Assembly (NCBI RefSeq): GCF_000153765.1
Contig: NZ_DS022294.1
Location: forward strand, 376,150 to 440,149
Direction: 5' to 3'
Source: Mariprofundus ferrooxydans PV-1
GTDB lineage: Bacteria > Pseudomonadota > Zetaproteobacteria > Mariprofundales > Mariprofundaceae
DNA length: 64,000 bases
Part shown: piece after piece, positions 18,511 through 26,251 of the stretch
How positions within the stretch are numbered: the stretch's first letter is position 1
Layout: each line of letters opens with the position of its first letter
Notes under the pieces: generated by a model
Databases searched by the model: none
What the model was told of the DNA's origin: nothing
Seen by the model: only the letters and a program-made list of their open reading frames with translations
Position numbers and translations under genes: made by a program

Positions 18511-19095
18511 ATGGAACACACGAATCTGGAAATAGAGCTGGTCAAACAGCATGAACAGCTGGCTCAGGCGGTGATCGCACTGGCACAAGGGGTGGCTCTC
18601 AAGCCGATTCTGCAACATGTCGGCGAACTTTCGAAGCAACTGACCGGAGCGCGCTATGCGATGCTCTCCTATATTGAAGACGGGAAAAAAATTTATATCC
18701 CACTGGGTATGTCTGAAGAGCAGCTGGCGCTGCTTGGCCCCAACGAACCCCAGGGTATTGGCCTGTTGGGGATCATGTGGGAGCAGCACGAAGTGCTACG
18801 CGTGAACGACATCCACCTGCACCCGAAAGCAGTCGGAGTGCCAGCCAACCACCCCGTTATGACAACATTCCTTGGTGCACCGATCATGTTTGCCGATGAA
18901 GTTCAGGGCGTTATCTATCTGACCGAGAAAGAGGGAGGGCGGGCTTTCACTCCTATTGATGAAACCATGATCCGGACACTCGCTTCCGCCTGTGCCGTCG
19001 CCATTTCCAATGCAATCCGGATCGAAAAGCTGCAGGCCCGCAATGCCGAACTCGAGCAGCGACTCAGTGAACGTAACATCTCAGGCGGCGATTAA
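18511..19095 (+). CDS. Stand-alone GAF-domain protein resembling DosS/DevS GAF modules
   Basis: 194 residues; ATGs at 18508 and 18511 both follow AGGAG, the second with the better spacing. Nearly the whole protein is one GAF domain with the block VGVPANHPVMTTFLGAPI followed by FADEVQGVIYLTEKEGG. That block is characteristic of the GAF modules of DevS/DosT-type redox or gas-sensing kinases, though here no kinase is attached. A C-terminal helix (KLQARNAELEQRLSE) looks like a short coiled-coil dimerisation segment. It could be a diffusible heme or ligand sensor that acts on another protein. No membrane segment. Confidence 0.75.
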   Translation: MEHTNLEIELVKQHEQLAQAVIALAQGVALKPILQHVGELSKQLTGARYAMLSYIEDGKKIYIPLGMSEEQLALLGPNEPQGIGLLGIMWEQHEVLRVNDIHLHPKAVGVPANHPVMTTFLGAPIMFADEVQGVIYLTEKEGGRAFTPIDETMIRTLASACAVAISNAIRIEKLQARNAELEQRLSERNISGGD

Positions 19096-19205
19096 CCCGC
19101 TTCTAACGACAACGGATTTCACATATCTGCGATCAAACCGGGCTCCGTTTCCCGTCTGGGTTAAAACAGGCTATATTAGAAGTGTTCCCTTTAAAGGAGG
19201 CGATC

Positions 19206-19703
19206 ATGAAACAAATCCTTACAGGTATCTGCCTGGGCATACTGTTACTTTCTGCCTGCAACAGTGCCGCTGACGAGGCCGCCGCCCCGACACACCAGAT
19301 CGGCACACTGACCTGTAATATCCTGCCTCACTCCGGCTTCAACCTGCTGATCCATTCAACCAGTGAAATCCGCTGCACATTCACCCCGTTAAACGGTAAC
19401 CGGGTCGAAAAATACAAGGGTGAAACAGGCATTGAGTTCGGTGTCGATATGAGTTTCAACAAACGCACAGAGATGGCCTATTCGGTTCTTTCCGATCATT
19501 TTTCGCCCGGCACAGGTCAGCTGAGCGGCAAATATTCAGGGGTCGGCGGTGGTGTCACGTTGGGCGTTTCCGTCGGCAACTCGGCTCCCATCAGAAATCA
19601 TGACAAAAACATCTCCCTGCAACCGGTTCAGTCCCGGAACAGCGGCGCTGGCGTTGCAGGGGGCTTTACCTATCTCTATCTGGAGCCGGACAACTCGCAG
19701 TAA
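19206..19703 (+). CDS. DUF992 family lipoprotein
   Basis: 165 residues after a strong AAAGGAGG site. The leader ends in a lipobox (LLLSAC), so the protein is probably lipid-anchored. The mature part follows the DUF992 pattern: IGTLTCNILP near its start, an internal EIRCTFTP strand with a second Cys that may pair with the first, and a run of Gly-rich strands (GKYSGVGGGVTLGVSVGNSA). Function unknown; members are beta-rich envelope proteins. Preceded and followed by unrelated genes in the same direction. Confidence 0.8.
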   Translation: MKQILTGICLGILLLSACNSAADEAAAPTHQIGTLTCNILPHSGFNLLIHSTSEIRCTFTPLNGNRVEKYKGETGIEFGVDMSFNKRTEMAYSVLSDHFSPGTGQLSGKYSGVGGGVTLGVSVGNSAPIRNHDKNISLQPVQSRNSGAGVAGGFTYLYLEPDNSQ

Positions 19704-19759
19704 GCGGGCCATCGCGCCAGCTCATTGAAGTTGCGCGCGATTGCGCGAGAATCCCCCCC

Positions 19760-20677
19760 ATGATCGATGCCGTCGTAAGCGCAACAGAGATCCGCAAACA
19801 CTTCGGAGAGCGTGAAGTGATATGCGGCGTAAATTTCGATATTCGCCCCGGTATATGCTTCGGCATTCTCGGCCCCAATGGCGCAGGTAAAACCACGCTG
19901 ATGCGCATGCTGACGGGCCTCTCCCCAATCACATCCGGCGACTACAGGTTGTTCGGCTCACCCGTTTCCGACACCTCGCTGCACCATCGCATCGGCGTTG
20001 TCCCGCAACAGGATAATCTGGATCCCGACTTTTCCGTGCGCCAGAACCTGAAGGTCTATGCCGGCTATTTCGGCATCGGCGCGGCAGAAGCAGACGCACG
20101 CATTGACGAGTTGCTGGAATTTTCCGCCCTGACCATGCGCGGCAATGACCAGGTATCCTCGCTCTCTGGCGGCATGCGCAGGCGATTGATGGTGGCCCGC
20201 GCCCTGATCAACAATCCCGACCTTATTGTGCTGGATGAGCCATCTACCGGGCTGGATCCGCAAGCTCGCCACCTGATCTGGCAGCGACTGCGTTCGCTGA
20301 AAACACAGGGGAAAACGCTGATCCTGACCACACACTATATGGAAGAGGCGGCAGAGCTGTGCGATGAACTGATTATCCTTGATCACGGCAGGATTCTGAC
20401 ACGCGGCGCACCGCGCGCGCTGATATCCGAACATGTCGAAGCCGAAGTCGTGGCGATCAGAGGGCTGAGTAACGAGCTGGATGCGATCGAATTGTGCGAA
20501 GGGTTGTCTGTCCGCCTCGATCATGTGGGCGATACGTGGTTTTGTTATGCCAGCGACGCGAGAGAGCTGGTCGCCCGTTGTACCGGCCGCCTTGAGCTCA
20601 CCTTTATCCATCGACCCGCCTCGCTGGAGGATGTCTTCCTCAAACTCACAGGTCGGGACATGAGGGAAGAGGGATGA
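19760..20677 (+). CDS. ABC transporter ATP-binding protein, NodI-like
   Basis: 305 residues. ATPase motifs are intact: Walker A GPNGAGKTT, the signature LSGGMRRRL, Walker B LIVLDEPSTGLDP, and the switch His in LTTHYMEEA. Length and the sequence FGILGPNGAGKTTLMRMLTG match the NodI/DrrA exporter subclass. Its stop overlaps the permease start by four bases (ATGA), so the two subunits are made together. The complex is an inner-membrane exporter; the substrate is unknown, and no nodulation genes are nearby. Confidence 0.9.
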   Translation: MIDAVVSATEIRKHFGEREVICGVNFDIRPGICFGILGPNGAGKTTLMRMLTGLSPITSGDYRLFGSPVSDTSLHHRIGVVPQQDNLDPDFSVRQNLKVYAGYFGIGAAEADARIDELLEFSALTMRGNDQVSSLSGGMRRRLMVARALINNPDLIVLDEPSTGLDPQARHLIWQRLRSLKTQGKTLILTTHYMEEAAELCDELIILDHGRILTRGAPRALISEHVEAEVVAIRGLSNELDAIELCEGLSVRLDHVGDTWFCYASDARELVARCTGRLELTFIHRPASLEDVFLKLTGRDMREEG

Positions 20678-21450
20678 ATCCATTCACACTCCTGCCCTCG
20701 CATATCCTGGCCGTCTGGCGCCGCAACTATCTTGTCTGGAGGAAACTCGCCGGCGTATCCATGCTCGGCAATTTCGGCGATCCTCTCCTCTACCTGCTCG
20801 GTCTCGGTTACGGCTTGGGTCACTATATCGGTGAGATGAACAGCATCCCCTACATGGCCTGGCTGGCCAGCGGCATCCTCTGCTCCAGCGCCATGAATAC
20901 AGCTACCTTCGAGGGCCTCTACTCCGCCTTCACCCGCATGAATCAACAGGGCACATGGGAGAGCATTCTCGCTACACCTGTGCGCATTCAGGAGATCATT
21001 GCGGGCGAGCAGATATGGGCTGCCACTAAAAGCCTGATCAGCGGCACAGCCATCTTTATTGTCGCAGGTCTGCTCGGCGGTATTCAACAGTGGGATACCG
21101 CGCTGCTGGCGCTGCCGGTCATTTTTCTGATCGGCCTGGCATTTGCCGGCCCTGCTCTGGCGATCTGTGCCGTATCTCCCAGTTACGATTTCTTCCTCTA
21201 CTATTTCACGCTGGCCGTCACGCCGATGTTTCTCTTCTGCGGCGTCTTCTATCCGATCGACACCCTGCCGGATTTTGCCCGCATGCTGGCACAGCTGCTG
21301 CCGCTGACCCATGCCGTGGCACTGGTCCGTCCGCTACTGACCGAAATGCCGTTAACACTGCCGTGGCTGCACGCAGGCGTACTTGCGCTCTACGCGCTGG
21401 CAGGCTTTACCCTTGCCGCCCGACTTGCCGCCCGCCGCCTGCTGCGCTGA
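20674..21450 (+). CDS. ABC-2 type transporter permease, NodJ-like
   Basis: 258 residues with six hydrophobic helices and the ABC-2 signature region near the end (FCGVFYPIDTLPDFARMLAQ, then LLPLTHAVALVRPLL). The early block RRNYLVWRKLAGVSMLGNFG, then DPLLYLLGLGYGLG, is typical of NodJ. Partner of the ATPase it overlaps; two copies of each would form the exporter. Confidence 0.9.
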   Translation: MNPFTLLPSHILAVWRRNYLVWRKLAGVSMLGNFGDPLLYLLGLGYGLGHYIGEMNSIPYMAWLASGILCSSAMNTATFEGLYSAFTRMNQQGTWESILATPVRIQEIIAGEQIWAATKSLISGTAIFIVAGLLGGIQQWDTALLALPVIFLIGLAFAGPALAICAVSPSYDFFLYYFTLAVTPMFLFCGVFYPIDTLPDFARMLAQLLPLTHAVALVRPLLTEMPLTLPWLHAGVLALYALAGFTLAARLAARRLLR

Positions 21451-21562
21451 CACAAGAGTACACTCGCATAACATATTTCGATCCTCTTGTTTGGTGATAT
21501 CGCTCACTGCCCTAAGCCCGGCGCATCGTTTGAATGGCCCTGACACCAACGGAGGTCTACCG

Positions 21563-21952
21563 ATGAAAAAAATAGTGATTACTCTACTCTCACTTTTTGC
21601 CCTGATGAGCATTGCTTCCAATGCCATGGCCGCAGATGCCACTGCATGGGAAAAGACAAAGGCCCTCACCAGCACAGTTGTCGAATGGACCGTTGATAAA
21701 TCTGTACAGGGTTGGCAGGCAACCAAAAATGGTGCCGCCAACATCACCGGCTGGGCGGCTGAAAAGTCCAAACAGGGCTGGAAAGCGACCAAGCAGGGCA
21801 CCGGTCATCTCGCCCAATGGACTGCCGAAAAAGCAAAACAAGGCTGGCAGGCAACCAAGCGCGGCACAGCCAATGCCGGTAAGTGGGTAACGGAAAAAAA
21901 CGAGAATGCCATGAAACACAACAAAAAACCGGCAACAGGATTAACCGCGTAG
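21563..21952 (+). CDS. Exported protein with three 22-residue Trp/Lys repeats
   Basis: 129 residues behind GGAGG. A signal peptide ends at AMAA. The mature protein carries three consecutive units of exactly 22 residues with the pattern W-x2-[DE]-K-[SA]-x-QGW-x-ATK-x-G-[AT]-x6, then a fourth partial unit (WVTEKNENAMK). A period of 22 equals two 11-residue turns and predicts a lysine-rich amphipathic helix, like apolipoprotein or LEA repeats. No family recognised. It could lie on a membrane surface or cover another envelope component. A perfect terminator follows the stop by 11 bases, so it is the last gene of its transcript. Confidence 0.7.
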   Translation: MKKIVITLLSLFALMSIASNAMAADATAWEKTKALTSTVVEWTVDKSVQGWQATKNGAANITGWAAEKSKQGWKATKQGTGHLAQWTAEKAKQGWQATKRGTANAGKWVTEKNENAMKHNKKPATGLTA

Positions 21953-21962
21953 TATTGAGCGA

Positions 21963-22003
21963 ACCGGGGAGGCGATCCAACGATCGCCTCCCCGGTCTGT
22001 TTT
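21963..22003 (+). terminator. Rho-independent terminator
   Basis: A perfect 15-base-pair stem, ACCGGGGAGGCGATC (21963-21977) with GATCGCCTCCCCGGT (21982-21996) around CAAC, followed by CTGTTTTT. It closes the transcript of the 22-residue-repeat protein. Confidence 0.92.
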
Positions 22004-22066
22004 TACCCGACACCGCCGTTGCACGCTATACGTTAACTTGCAGAATAGCGGCACGCATGTGCATCA

Positions 22067-22093
22067 CCTGCACCTGCTATAGCCACGTGCAGG
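22067..22093 (+). promoter_or_regulatory. Hairpin overlapping the ribosome-binding site of the 37-residue protein
   Basis: CCTGCAC (22067-22073) pairs with GTGCAGG (22087-22093), and the right arm contains the first three bases of the AGGAG Shine-Dalgarno at 22091-22095. The folded RNA would limit ribosome access to the ATG at 22101. Structural inference only. Confidence 0.3.
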
Positions 22094-22100
22094 AGTAGCC

Positions 22101-22214
22101 ATGAAGCTGTCGACAAAAATCATACTGGGTATCGCCATCGCTGCAGTCATCTTTTTCGGACTGGAAACACTGATCGCCGGCCATTTCATGACGCAATTCT
22201 CCGGCAGCCGCTGA
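22101..22214 (+). CDS. Small membrane protein, 37 aa
   Basis: ATG at 22101 with AGGAG six bases upstream. The protein is MKLSTKIILGIAIAAVIFFG, then LETLIAGHFMTQFSGSR: a positively charged start, one hydrophobic helix of about 16-18 residues, and a short polar tail with a Glu and His. It is either a single-pass small protein or an uncleaved leader. Good ribosome site, charge pattern (inside-positive) and lack of overlap with any other gene support it; no homologue is recognised. Confidence 0.5.
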   Translation: MKLSTKIILGIAIAAVIFFGLETLIAGHFMTQFSGSR

Positions 22215-22225
22215 TTCTTATACCC

Positions 22226-22732
22226 TCAACCGCCCAACAGTCCGTGATAAATCGCCAGTGTCACGGCATCAAAACAGACAAAGAGAATCAATTCCGGCGC
22301 ATCATTGATATCCTGAAAGTCGGCGCAGGTGCGTACAGCAATGCGCGCGGCGGCTTCCTGTGGATAAGCGTAAGCGCCGGTAGAAATCGAGGGAAAGGCA
22401 ACCGATGCGAGGCTGCGGCCCAAAGCCAGAGCCAGGCTGTTGCGGTAGCAGGCGGCAAGCACCTCCGCTTCACCCTCCCCGCCGCCATGCCAGATCGGAC
22501 CGACCGTATGAATCACGTAACGGGCAGGCAAACGATAGGCGGCGGTCATTTTCGCCTCTCCGGCATTGCAACCGCCCAGCCTACGACACTCATCCAACAG
22601 AGCAGGACCCGCTGCGCGGTGAATCGCCCCGTCAACACCGCCACCTCCAAGCAGCGAGGTATTCGCTGCATTGACGATCGCATCAACATTCAACATGGTG
22701 ATATCAGCCTGAACTGAACGCATGTCGGTCAT
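22226..22732 (-). CDS. ymdB: Macrodomain protein, O-acetyl-ADP-ribose deacetylase
   Basis: 168 residues from the ATG at 22732, behind a perfect GGAGG. Macrodomain markers are [20 protein letters not shown] and [23 protein letters not shown] and [12 protein letters not shown], as in the YmdB/MacroD class that removes acetyl from O-acetyl-ADP-ribose and mono-ADP-ribose from proteins. The catalytic Asn and Asp positions (NAAN, GVDGA) are kept. It is convergent with the 37-residue gene. A 45-base longer frame exists but lacks a ribosome site. Confidence 0.93.
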
Positions 22733-22883
22733 GATACACCTCCGGAAACGGTCTGCCTGAGAGTGATTATAGATCAATCAGTACGGGCTTTCCGATTCGG
22801 ATCTGTTTTTAAGCAGGTACGCTGCAACCACGCTCGGCAATCTTGCCGGCCATCCATGCTGTCAGCTGCGTTTTACGCAATGG

Positions 22884-23063
22884 CTATTCATCCTGATCCG
22901 GATCTTTCGATGCATACCGGAGCTTCAGAATAAAAACGACCCCTACCACCAAAAGGAAAATACATACGAAAACATCCAGCACCAGCGTCAGCGACACCTT
23001 GGTGCCCAATAGCTCCGTCAGAAATCTGAGCAGTGCATCGAACGGATCGATTGTTGGTTTCAT
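22884..23063 (-). CDS. Small single-pass membrane protein, 59 aa
   Basis: The ATG at 23063 follows GGGGGA. The protein starts MKPTIDPFDALLRFLTELLG, has one strongly hydrophobic helix (LTLVLDVFVCIFLLVVGVVF) and ends in the charged tail KLRYASKDPDQDE. A longer frame begins at 23135, but its first 24 residues are low-quality. No family recognised. It may be co-transcribed with the neighbouring leftward membrane-protein gene, although 221 bases separate them. Confidence 0.5.
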   Translation of the reverse strand: MKPTIDPFDALLRFLTELLGTKVSLTLVLDVFVCIFLLVVGVVFILKLRYASKDPDQDE

Positions 23064-23284
23064 GACTGAGTCCCCCGTCTGTGAAGCGGGAGAGCTTGCC
23101 GCCGGGCACCCCGCATGAACAGCTTGCTGTTTCATCCCCCCGCTCGCAGGTCATCAGAGCTGTCTCAAAATATCGGGGCAATCACGCCGCAGGTCGGCCA
23201 ATCCGTATCTTGCAGCGACCGGGCACCCACCATGATCATCGGCTCGCGCGTGCATCGAACTTTGCATCACTGAGCTATCGCACA

Positions 23285-23869
23285 TCACCCCGGTAATTCG
23301 CGCACTTCCACCGGCATCGCCCTGATCTTTTCGTAGATCCGTCGCATGCGACGGATCGGCCACCAGTCATAGAGATAGATCTGGATCGGTCGCCACATCG
23401 CCACCCAACCACAGATCAGCAGCCCCTCACCGAACATGTCGCGCACCAGCCCCGGGTGCGGCGTACTCAACATCTCGCGCCCAGCGAGACAAGCGAACAG
23501 GAACAACAGGCCGATGATCAGGGACGCCCTTCCCTGCAAAAGCATGAAACGCAGATTCATGTCGGCGTGATGAGCGCAATAATCGAAATAGTTGCACACA
23601 GCTGTCGGTATTGAGCGCGCCTGCTCACTGTCGCACTCACTCGCCGGTAAATAGATCACCAGTTTCAGCGGCAGGGCCAGCGGAAAATCCTGCACCGTAT
23701 CGACGATATAGCTTTCGGCATCGGCATCGAGGTCTTTCTCGATAAACGGGGCGGGGTCGAGTGAGTTAAACAGACGTCGTGCTTCACTCAAATGCAGTTC
23801 GACAAGATAATCTTCGCCCTCGCGTCCATAGTGCGCGGTGATACGGCGGAGGGGCGAGAACAGGTGCAT
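23285..23869 (-). CDS. Hypothetical membrane protein, 194 aa
   Basis: A soluble N-terminal half (about residues 1-108) is followed by two membrane helices (LIIGLLFLFACLAG and LLICGWVAMWRPIQIYLYDW) and a basic tail (RRMRRIYEKIRAMPVEVREL). The N-terminal half contains YLVELHLSEARRLFNSLDPA, then PFIEKDLDADAESYIVD. The motif YDWWPIRRMRRIYEKI at the second membrane border is conserved in a family of uncharacterised proteins in several proteobacteria, as far as can be recalled. Topology predicts both ends in the cytoplasm. Function unknown. Confidence 0.6.
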   Translation of the reverse strand: MHLFSPLRRITAHYGREGEDYLVELHLSEARRLFNSLDPAPFIEKDLDADAESYIVDTVQDFPLALPLKLVIYLPASECDSEQARSIPTAVCNYFDYCAHHADMNLRFMLLQGRASLIIGLLFLFACLAGREMLSTPHPGLVRDMFGEGLLICGWVAMWRPIQIYLYDWWPIRRMRRIYEKIRAMPVEVRELPG

Positions 23870-23953
23870 GATCTGACTCTAAAACAGGCACGCGGGAAAA
23901 TCCATCGCATCGAATAAAGCAGTAACACAGCGCGACATTGCTGTTCATCAACA

Positions 23954-24565
23954 CTATGCGCGTCGCATGTAAATGGTAAAATCATCCGGCAGGTAGTCGC
24001 TACGACAACGGCAGTCCGGGGTCAGCGTGGCACAGAACTCCAGTATGCTGCCTGGATCGTAAGCTTGCATGTCACCGAGTTGCGTCACGGAAAATTTTCT
24101 GGCATCCAGCATATTAAATGCCACACCCTGGCGACATAGTTCGAACATGCGAGTGATCACGCGACGTGCGTAACCGCCATCATCATGCAGATTCCAGTTT
24201 AGCGTTCCGGAGAGCACAACCCAGTCAAATGATCGGGGCGGCCAGGCAAAGTCGAACAGCTCCCCGCATAACAGGTTCAATCCCGGATTCATGCGCGCAC
24301 CTGTTGCCAGAATCTCCGGCGACAGATCGATACCGGTATAATCCACGCTCAAATCATGACCGCGCAGCCAGCTGTGCAAATCCGCAAAGCCACAGCCCAC
24401 ATCCAGCAGGGAGTCCCCGGCAGACACACCGATATCAGCCAGCACTCTGAACAGCACTTTCTGCAAGCCTCGTGACTGCCAGAACAGCGCATCCGGCGCA
24501 TAGCCGTGGAGATTCAGGCTATCGCGGTGGCGCTCGATCAGGCGACGGCGCTGCAACGGATTCAT
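23954..24565 (-). CDS. Class I SAM-dependent methyltransferase
   Basis: 203 residues from the ATG at 24565 (MNPLQRRRLIERHRDSLNLH). The glycine-rich SAM site is LLDVGCGFADL and the acidic residue after strand 2 is in YTGIDLSPEIL. A later block, WVVLSGTLNWNL, corresponds to motif IV. A frame open for 52 further codons upstream lacks homology and a ribosome site. The substrate is unknown; the length suits a small-molecule or tRNA-type methylase. Confidence 0.85.
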   Translation of the reverse strand: MNPLQRRRLIERHRDSLNLHGYAPDALFWQSRGLQKVLFRVLADIGVSAGDSLLDVGCGFADLHSWLRGHDLSVDYTGIDLSPEILATGARMNPGLNLLCGELFDFAWPPRSFDWVVLSGTLNWNLHDDGGYARRVITRMFELCRQGVAFNMLDARKFSVTQLGDMQAYDPGSILEFCATLTPDCRCRSDYLPDDFTIYMRRA

Positions 24566-25100: not shown

Positions 25101-26251
25101 ATGAAGCATGCTAACACGGTTTTTCATCAATTGCTCAGAGTGATTCCGCGTCACCGTTTTGAGGAGGTTGTCAGGCGTTATGATGGTGACAGGCGTATCC
25201 GCAGTTTGTCCTGCTGGACGCAGTTTTGCGTCATGCTCTATGCGCAGCTTTGCTCCCGGCAGTCTCTGCGGGATGTGGTTTCGGCATGGGAAAGTCACGC
25301 CAGCAGGCACTATCACCTGGGAGCAGGCTCGGTGAGGCGTTCCACGCTTGCTGATGCCAATGTGAAGCGCTCTGCGGGCATGTATCTGGAGCTGTTTTAC
25401 TGGCTTTTGCATCAGTTTCGCGGCAAGGGCATCCACCGCAAGGATGCCGTTCGGCTGATTGACTCCACGACGATTGACCTGTGCAAGCATCAGTTTGAAT
25501 GGGCGAGCTTCCGCACCGGCAAATCGGGCGTGAAGGTGCATACGGTGTATGACCCTGATGCGCAGGTTCCCACCTTCTTTTCCATCACCGCAGCCAAAAA
25601 GCATGACAAGAAGGCTGCGGAGCACATGCCCCTGTTGCCCGGCGCCACTTATGTGTTCGACAGGGCCTACAACGATTACGCATGGTTCCATGACCTGACA
25701 CAAAGGGATATCCGCTTCGTCAGCCGCATGAAGCGCAACGCGGAATCGAGGTAGTGGCAACGCTCCCTGTATCAGATGACGGTGTATTGGAAGACCAGCA
25801 TATCCGTCTGTCATCGGCCAAAGGCAGGAAGGAATGTCCGACCATCCTGCGCCGCATCTGCTTCGTGCATGAGGAAGATGGCAAGAAGCTTGTCTTTATC
25901 ACCAATGACCTGAAGCGCTCCGCCGGAGCCATCGCAGCCCTGTACAAACAGCGCTGGCAAATTGAACTGTTCTTCAGGTGGATTAAACAGAACCTGAAGA
26001 TCAAACGCTTCATCGGCACATCCGAGAACGCTGTCAAAATCCAGATTATCATTGCCATGATCGCCTATCTGCTGCTGCACATGGCAAGAAGGATCCTGCC
26101 TGCAAGCCGATCCATGCAACAACTGGCGAGACTCGTTTCCGTCAACCTCATGCAGCGACGAAACTTGCTCGAATTGCTGGCTGATTCCCCACCGCCGCCA
26201 AAGCGACGATTCGCCATAAATCAGCGACAAATGTGCCTCATCAATGCTTAA
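25101..26251 (+). pseudogene. IS4-family DDE transposase, one frameshift
   Basis: The first frame (25101-25754) has LIDSTTID with the first catalytic Asp and VFDRAYND with the second. The second frame (to 26251) has YKQRWQIELFFRWIKQ, the Y-R-E-K motif with the catalytic Glu. RMKRNAE is followed in the 0 frame by a stop. Restoring one A (GAATCG to GAAATCG near 25745) gives NAEIEVVATLPVSDD and a continuous protein of about 383 residues. No slippery heptamer is present, so programmed frameshifting is unlikely. The element is probably dead unless this is a sequencing error. Confidence 0.82.

Follow-up and report, generated by a model that had tools for sequence, protein, structure and literature searches.

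An exported tryptophan-lysine hendecad repeat protein of Mariprofundus ferrooxydans, its conserved promoter motif and its resemblance to unnamed proteins of other Pseudomonadota

Proteins built from amphipathic 11- or 22-residue repeats are among the closest described systems for the gene considered here. In synuclein and LEA repeats the helix makes three turns in 11 residues, which sets successive residues 98 degrees apart (360 x 3/11). LEA proteins and hydrophilins are deficient in Trp and Cys, and the apolipoproteins A1, A4 and E carry a proline between their 22-mers. A further point of comparison is provided by the exported Ag473-family lipoproteins (NF047840), whose type protein is described as lacking aromatic residues and having 7-residue tandem repeats (PMC3402496). 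In the literature searched there was no account of a periplasmic amphipathic helix made of 11-residue repeats and, for bacterial amphipathic hendecads, nothing on point. Here we describe a gene from a 64,000-nucleotide stretch of the M. ferrooxydans PV-1 genome (contig NZ_DS022294.1, positions 376,150 to 440,149; hereafter the window) whose product, judged by its sequence, resembles an unnamed wider set of Trp-Lys hendecad repeat proteins of Pseudomonadota.

The gene is an open reading frame of 129 amino acids on the forward strand of the window (21563-21952, ATG to TAG), as are its parts given below, and a Shine-Dalgarno sequence, GGAGG, is read directly at 21551..21555. An initial annotation of the window had proposed that the product is exported, and the sequence agrees: by eye, the 23-residue signal peptide (21563..21631) is laid out as MKK, a hydrophobic stretch and AMA followed by a further Ala, with cleavage after AMA, and both Ala of the A-x-A cleavage site (A21 and A23) are invariant across the 11 rows of our family alignment, A1. 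The mature Trp-Lys hendecad repeat protein has 106 residues (21632..21952 with the stop codon). It contains an N-terminal half unit of 13 residues (Trp29 to Glu41, 21647..21685), three units of 22 residues defined by self-comparison and unit alignment (Trp42 to Gly63, 21686..21751; Trp64 to Gln85, 21752..21817; Trp86 to Lys107, 21818..21883) and a degenerate C-terminal tail from Trp108 (21884..21949).

That the protein is a repeat is certain. When the mature sequence is compared with itself, 30 of 84 residues are identical at a lag of 22 and 23 of 62 at a lag of 44 (z 8.7 and 7.4, each against 500 shuffles), and no other lag between 2 and 49 passes z 3. Eight of the 106 mature residues are Trp, at positions 29, 42, 51, 64, 73, 86, 95 and 108; the gaps between them alternate 13 and 9, and each 22-residue unit is a pair of hendecads with Trp at this 9/13 spacing. 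The units had been described as three exact copies. They are exact in length and in Trp register, whereas their sequences agree at only 10, 13 and 13 of 22 residues in the three pairs, and at 40, 40 and 44 of 66 nucleotides. Among the residues that are identical in a pair, 6, 6 and 5 are written with different codons, and Tandem Repeats Finder at score 40 did not report the units. This divergence, the differing codons and the missing report together indicate that the repeat is old and has been kept at the protein level.

Searching other genomes for the repeat, as the initial annotation had proposed, recovered it from 14 of 22 congeners, with weaker matches further out. The 61 genomes searched with the window protein included those of Mariprofundus sp. 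KV, M. micogutta ET2 and metagenome-assembled genomes of Mariprofundus or other Zetaproteobacteria; 15 matched, all of them Mariprofundus, namely the approximately 3-Mb genome of PV-1 itself and the 14 congeners. A profile search of the order likewise matched 15 of 78 genomes, again all Mariprofundus, with no match in 55 genomes of its other genera, some of the genomes without a match being incomplete assemblies. Since eight of the 22 congeners have no match, the protein is not essential to the lifestyle. The family comprises 18 Mariprofundus genes that fall into three groups, A (five genes, the window gene included, with 3-4 units), B (six genes of about 95 residues, with a first Trp gap of 11) and C (five genes of about 96 residues), and two odd genes at loci L010 and L017. 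Group C includes a second gene of the PV-1 genome (C4:1219241), about 0.8 Mb from the window gene and 42% identical to it in product. Alignment A1 has eight invariant columns, six of Trp and two of signal-peptide Ala. Ten gene pairs were tested; in the nine with a finite dS, dN was well below dS (dN/dS about 0.04 to 0.4), and the family is under purifying selection.

By their own sequence models, LEA_4, Apolipoprotein and Synuclein do not take in the window protein, though it has their helical period. The protein was scanned with Pfam, NCBIfam and PADLOC and the other ten A1 members with Pfam only; for the window protein no Pfam or NCBIfam model reached its curated cut-off and PADLOC gave no match, in keeping with the statement in the initial annotation that no family was known for it. 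The best Pfam match, LEA_4, is insignificant (E 0.11, 12.9 bits against a cut-off of 51.1), and only one of the 11 family members matches LEA_4 at E 1. Neither Apolipoprotein nor Synuclein was matched at E 10 by the window protein, and searches of the PDB by sequence, with the window protein alone or with the A1 profile, gave insignificant matches only. The likeness to apolipoprotein or LEA repeats that had been suggested therefore stands for architecture and not for membership. Group 3 LEA proteins share 11-residue amphipathic repeats with the window protein, but the latter is exported, scores below the LEA_4 cut-off and has eight Trp, six of them in invariant columns, unlike the Trp-deficient LEA proteins and hydrophilins. 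The exchangeable apolipoproteins (A-I/A-IV/E) likewise have 22-residue amphipathic units, but in the window protein no proline stands between the units (the sole Pro is in the tail) and the apolar face carries small rather than large residues. With alpha-synuclein and the KTKEGV class of 11-residue repeats the protein shares the 11/3 periodicity, an x-T-K-x-G core, small residues and low predicted structure; it differs in its signal peptide and in its Trp at every 9 or 13 residues.

The amphipathic helix predicted in the initial annotation is borne out by periodicity. In nine of the 11 group A and B proteins the largest hydrophobic moment lies at 98 degrees, the other two peaking at 100 and 164. 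In group C the peak of all five proteins is at 132-134 degrees, so that the 11/3 amphipathic periodicity typical of LEA, synuclein and apolipoprotein-type repeats is found in the window protein while group C peaks elsewhere. Depending on the member, between 1 and 99 of 2000 shuffles reached the observed power at 98.2 degrees (4 of 2000 for the window protein), and the mean 18-residue moment at 100 degrees exceeds the shuffle mean in all 16 rows tested; the moments are modest in size. On an 11/3 wheel the Trp form two stripes, one at 0 and one at 164 degrees; Ala, Gly, Ser and Thr make up most of the arc that these enclose, Lys/His at 33 degrees being an exception, and the face opposite the small residues is mainly Lys, Glu, Gln and Asn. 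A Lys-rich face, which had also been claimed, did not hold up as a trait of the family. The window protein has a net charge of +9, but the six group B rows lie between -5 and +1, and the charge profile has a power of 0.06 at the helical angle against 0.12 at its strongest angle. A family whose charge runs from +18 to -5 is unlike one with a conserved lipid-binding lysine face.

Neither a lipid-binding score nor structure prediction adds to this. The maximum of a HeliQuest-type score exceeds the mean of the shuffles in 11 of 16 rows, among them that of the window protein, and falls below it in five, by at most 0.45 and with no spread computed for the shuffles, and it does not discriminate the family from shuffled sequence. 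AlphaFold2 with the 11-row alignment returned an all-helix model at low confidence (pLDDT 48), and with the window protein alone a mostly non-helical, unstructured one (pLDDT 37). We regard the predictions as uninformative as to structure; low pLDDT with and without an alignment would be compatible with synuclein-like behaviour in which a disordered chain becomes helical. Because the periodicity is strong and the AlphaFold2 confidence low, the helix is well supported by the former and poorly by the latter.

The region upstream of the gene carries a motif that the family shares. We compared the 150 nt upstream of each of the 18 family genes and found a single GTGA-N7-CAC core in 17, at 64-86 bases ahead of the start coordinate used (the ATG of L016 lies three bases before that coordinate); the 150 nt upstream of the odd gene L017 have no such site. 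In the window the CRP-type site is GGTGATATCGCTCACT (21493..21508, forward strand), with its core starting at 21494. A -10-like hexamer, TTGAAT here (21530..21535, forward strand), follows at a fixed distance, 36 bases after the G of GTGA; its first position is T in 17 of 17 regions and its fifth is A in 16 of 17, and most bases between site and hexamer hold little information. In 16 of the 17 rows GGAGG follows the site by 54-64 nt. Class II CRP sites are centred at -41.5. If the hexamer is the -10 element, a transcription start placed by this -10-like box would put the centre of the CRP-type site at -41.5 as well, the class II position. The promoters of the family resemble class II CRP-dependent ones in their GTGA/CAC half sites and, by spacing, in their centre, and differ from them in a weaker right half site (NCAC in place of TCACA).

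Among 112 other genes of at least about 200 codons on the same stretches, the core occurs upstream of one, which also fits the -10 spacing. A strict composite pattern is found at three places in the 3-Mb PV-1 genome, against none in the backward control; two are the paralogues, and downstream of the third (L070) no sensible gene was picked out. A slightly looser pattern, whose backward control has 23 places, is found at 45 places in 23 genomes of the genus. Family genes account for 13, and the 32 that remain exceed chance by little; most of them may be chance, and we set aside a wider regulon drawn from this pattern. Upstream of distant relatives the core was absent in all 11 checked out of 12 (L062 was left out). 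These promoter counts should not be read as independent trials, since the motif was recognised post hoc and on related genes. The upstream comparison gives good support to a conserved activator-type promoter motif, and the site looks like a binding site for a regulator of the cAMP-receptor type. Cyclic-nucleotide domains are matched 15 times in the PV-1 genome and class III cyclase domains six times, and the genome encodes at least two CRP-like regulators; candidate regulators are the L116 protein, with cNMP_binding and HTH_Crp_2 domains and a helix SRETISR, and the L081 protein. The composite site with the same -10 spacing (L107:1501-1548, L086:1501-1548 and L089:1501-1548) was also seen directly 5' of a 273-codon gene in three genomes, ET2, a putative CP-8 genome and CG1_02_53_45. 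Pfam scans of this gene in two of the three make its product an MlaE-type lipid-transport permease, and the position of its ATG, at the inferred transcription start, suggests a leaderless message.

Downstream, the window gene has a terminator of its own, as the initial annotation had noted. The element (21963..22004, forward strand) was identified by a hairpin scan and by folding energy: a hairpin at 21963-21996 has 15 base pairs without a mismatch and a loop of 4, followed by the T-rich tail CTGTTTTT, and folds at -38.2 kcal/mol (z -7.25), with none of 200 shuffles as good. By a scripted rule, none of the 17 other homologues is followed by such a hairpin within 120 nt, and we do not regard the terminator as a family trait. 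An Rfam search of 19000-24000 matched no RNA element. Just past the terminator lies a 37-codon open reading frame (22101-22214) with a plausible ribosome-binding site, encoding a small hydrophobic protein without a Pfam match.

The neighbours of the family genes vary. The window gene is preceded by a DUF992 gene and by a pair of ABC-2 exporter genes (19760-21450), which ends 112 bases before it; downstream, on the opposite strand, is a macro-domain gene. The sole syntenic locus, L019, has a DUF992 homologue directly 5' of its repeat gene and no ABC pair, and at L025 a DUF992 homologue lies about 5 kb from the repeat gene. Neighbours of group B genes were assigned by Pfam for the L023 copies and otherwise by BLAST clustering. 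An RND operon of TetR, OEP, HlyD and AcrB types lies near the group B gene in four of the five stretches examined (out of six group B loci), and in two of the five a gene with 2Fe-2S and class III cyclase domains lies beside it. The latter genes (L023:7918-8826 and L024:7382-8293) join an N-terminal 2Fe-2S ferredoxin domain to a class III adenylate/guanylate cyclase domain and adjoin the group B gene; from this architecture they may encode a redox-sensing cyclase. At L024:4268-7385 the gene for the AcrB-type pump is split into two overlapping frames, which is not so in its relatives at L023, L026 and L027, and at L030:9383-10741 a frame that by eye encodes a mannose-1-phosphate guanylyltransferase adjoins a group C gene. 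Elsewhere in the window (25101-26251), two abutting frames in different registers, 25101-25754 and 25754-26251, look by eye like the halves of one IS transposase. We set aside an operon partner: the window and L019 have neighbours in common, as do four group B loci and a few other pairs, and beyond these no neighbours were shared. The neighbourhoods hint at envelope and cyclic-nucleotide themes; they prove nothing.

Similar proteins occur beyond the genus. The A1 profile matches 12 of 375 genomes of the phylum outside Mariprofundus at E 1e-3; the products are mostly exported, by eye, and many have regular 11-residue units of the form W-E-K-T-K-E-x-S-x-K-G. Because A1 contains the signal peptide, the search was repeated with five mature sequences, whose profile matched seven of the 375 genomes, while its reversal matched none of 398; the reversed rows carry small copying errors, and an empty result by itself shows nothing. 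Profile-profile comparison of mature Mariprofundus repeats with distant repeats gave a probability of 96.1% (E 3.2e-9), against 0.1% for the reversed profile. Forward matches and reversed controls together support a direction-specific similarity. Thus the likeness of the Mariprofundus repeats to a set of W-x-x-T-K hendecad proteins is supported, on sequence grounds, beyond what composition and period would give; common descent is not thereby proven, and either descent or convergence of a short unit could account for it.

A profile of seven of the distant W-x-x-T-K repeats, run without a reversed control, matched 51 of the 398 genomes, spread over 35 of the 212 genera; 45 of these lie among the 375 genomes outside the genus, seven of the 45 holding the seeds themselves. 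The remaining six are Mariprofundus genomes, matched at family genes in five cases and in one at an Ala/Asp-rich lipoprotein. This last (L171, in a putative CP-5 genome; a match of profile A7) is without the motif, and we do not include it in the family. Among 31 loci (30 from the distant-repeat search, and L171), the motif W-x-x-[STAV]-[KRQ] occurs at least twice in 27 and once or not at all in the other four; a crude rule finds a signal peptide or lipobox in 20, and one locus has no long frame. At seven loci (L155, L160, L162, L163, L167, L168 and L170) the Trp hendecads form a tail behind a front half that by eye is PRC-barrel-like. No Pfam or NCBIfam model scored above its cut-off in the seven distant relatives scanned. 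Four of these score 19-41 bits with the Ag473-family model, whose members are likewise exported repeat proteins, but all four fall below its cut-off of 100, and one distant lipoprotein relative scores 22.2 with Pfam Synuclein against a cut-off of 23.3. In the PDB the distant-repeat profile matched a designed helical bundle, 4uos, in four stretches that are each weak and together give E 5e-11. The next match, and the nearest natural chain, was alpha-synuclein, not significant at E 0.2-0.9, whose repeat aligned without gaps with KTKEG under WxxTKE. The Mariprofundus profile found neither the 4uos bundle nor synuclein at E 1. Searches of viral contigs confirmed no relative; three matches there (E 3e-3 to 6e-3), two to tape-measure proteins and one to a hypothetical protein, we take as matches of periodicity, and a mobile origin was discarded. 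The only match at E 0.01 among 72,556 plasmid records was a Gluconobacter sphaericus plasmid gene (L172:1492-1887, NZ_CP068423.1; E 6e-5), with Trp gaps, by eye, of 13, 9, 13, 9 and 17, an alternation of 13 and 9 as in the window protein.

How such a protein would work can be framed as a model that we hold tentatively, at somewhat short of an even chance: the protein is exported and folds conditionally into an amphipathic 11/3 helix on a membrane of the envelope, which it protects in stress, and its gene is under CRP-type control. After export the chain would be largely unfolded in solution, and on contact with a lipid surface of the envelope it would form a long 11/3 helix, with its Ala/Gly/Ser/Thr face on the membrane and each edge of that face held at the lipid interface by a Trp stripe. 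We infer membrane binding from this arrangement. The helix would then be a removable coat that protects the envelope under stress, made when a CRP-type regulator, most simply one bound to cAMP, is active. Its mode of working would be like that of synuclein or group 3 LEA repeats, to which we claim no kinship. In favour of the model we count the repeat and its Trp register, the 11/3 periodicity, dN below dS, the CRP-type site, the CRP-like regulators and cyclase domains of the genome, the cyclase and RND neighbours and the site upstream of the MlaE gene, together with the low-confidence all-helix model and the insignificant synuclein match of the distant-repeat profile. Against it we count the low pLDDT, the modest moments, the non-discriminating lipid score, the spread of charge and the group C angle, as well as the post hoc motif, the many non-family places of its looser pattern, the eight congeners without a match, the presence of as many as 15 cyclic-nucleotide-domain matches and the failure of the Mariprofundus profile to match synuclein.

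The same small-residue face and 11/3 periodicity could instead serve self-assembly, with the faces packed in the manner of an alanine zipper and the Trp capping the sides, so that the protein would be a hendecad coiled coil forming an oligomeric periplasmic rod or scaffold. The stretches of 4uos that the distant-repeat profile matches have an 11-residue period too, and two of the seven distant relatives match, though far below cut-off, an NCBIfam model for an alanine-zipper lipoprotein. Yet those 4uos stretches have no Trp, neither AlphaFold2 prediction gives a confident structure, and tight coiled coils seldom combine Trp stripes on opposite edges with so much Gly; we consider this reading unlikely. 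Just as unlikely, in our estimate, is a disordered periplasmic protectant of hydrophilin or LEA type that shields proteins without binding membranes. Such a protein would be expected to show the low complexity, the poor prediction of a folded unit and the 11-mer repeat like that of LEA group 3, with its weak LEA_4 match, that are seen here, but hydrophilins avoid Trp, which here fills six of the eight invariant columns, and the LEA_4 score is far under its cut-off, with a match at E 1 in only one of 11 members.

Two further readings look to what surrounds the cell or the gene. The protein could be an extracellular structural or adhesive component of the iron-oxide stalk or of a biofilm, which we regard as improbable. 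It is exported, and the mannose-1-phosphate guanylyltransferase-like frame beside a group C gene would fit. CP-5 and CP-8 are reported to form dreads rather than stalks (PMC5513912) and ET2 is assigned to the stalk formers (PMC8250860); two genomes inferred to be CP-5 and CP-8 have no match, and ET2 has the gene. Only three genomes are informative here, however, two of them by inferred identity, no match was found in the 55 genomes of the order's other genera, and similar repeats occur in Pseudomonadota outside the order. Least probable, and in our view very much so, is an accessory factor of the neighbouring export pump, ABC-2 here and RND in group B. In its favour are the ABC-2 pair upstream in the window and the RND operon near four of five group B genes, but the ABC pair is absent from L019, other loci have unrelated neighbours, and the repeat gene has a promoter motif and a terminator of its own.

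The outer relatives in Pseudomonadota and the conserved activator-type promoter go beyond what the initial annotation had claimed. They allow a bolder proposal, to which we give only a modest chance: that unnamed envelope proteins in several Pseudomonadota families are functional counterparts of synuclein, exported 11/3-helix repeats whose small-residue faces are edged by Trp and which coat envelope membranes on demand, and that in Mariprofundus they are under a CRP-type regulator that possibly also governs an MlaE operon in some strains. If this is true, cyclic-nucleotide signalling would be tied to the upkeep of envelope lipids in iron oxidisers. Such proteins, should they bind membranes on demand, would also provide a simple bacterial system for amphipathic 11/3 helices. 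Their function in Mariprofundus is testable because the conserved promoter motif predicts when the protein is made, and the motif also opens a way into the cyclic-nucleotide signalling of marine iron oxidisers.
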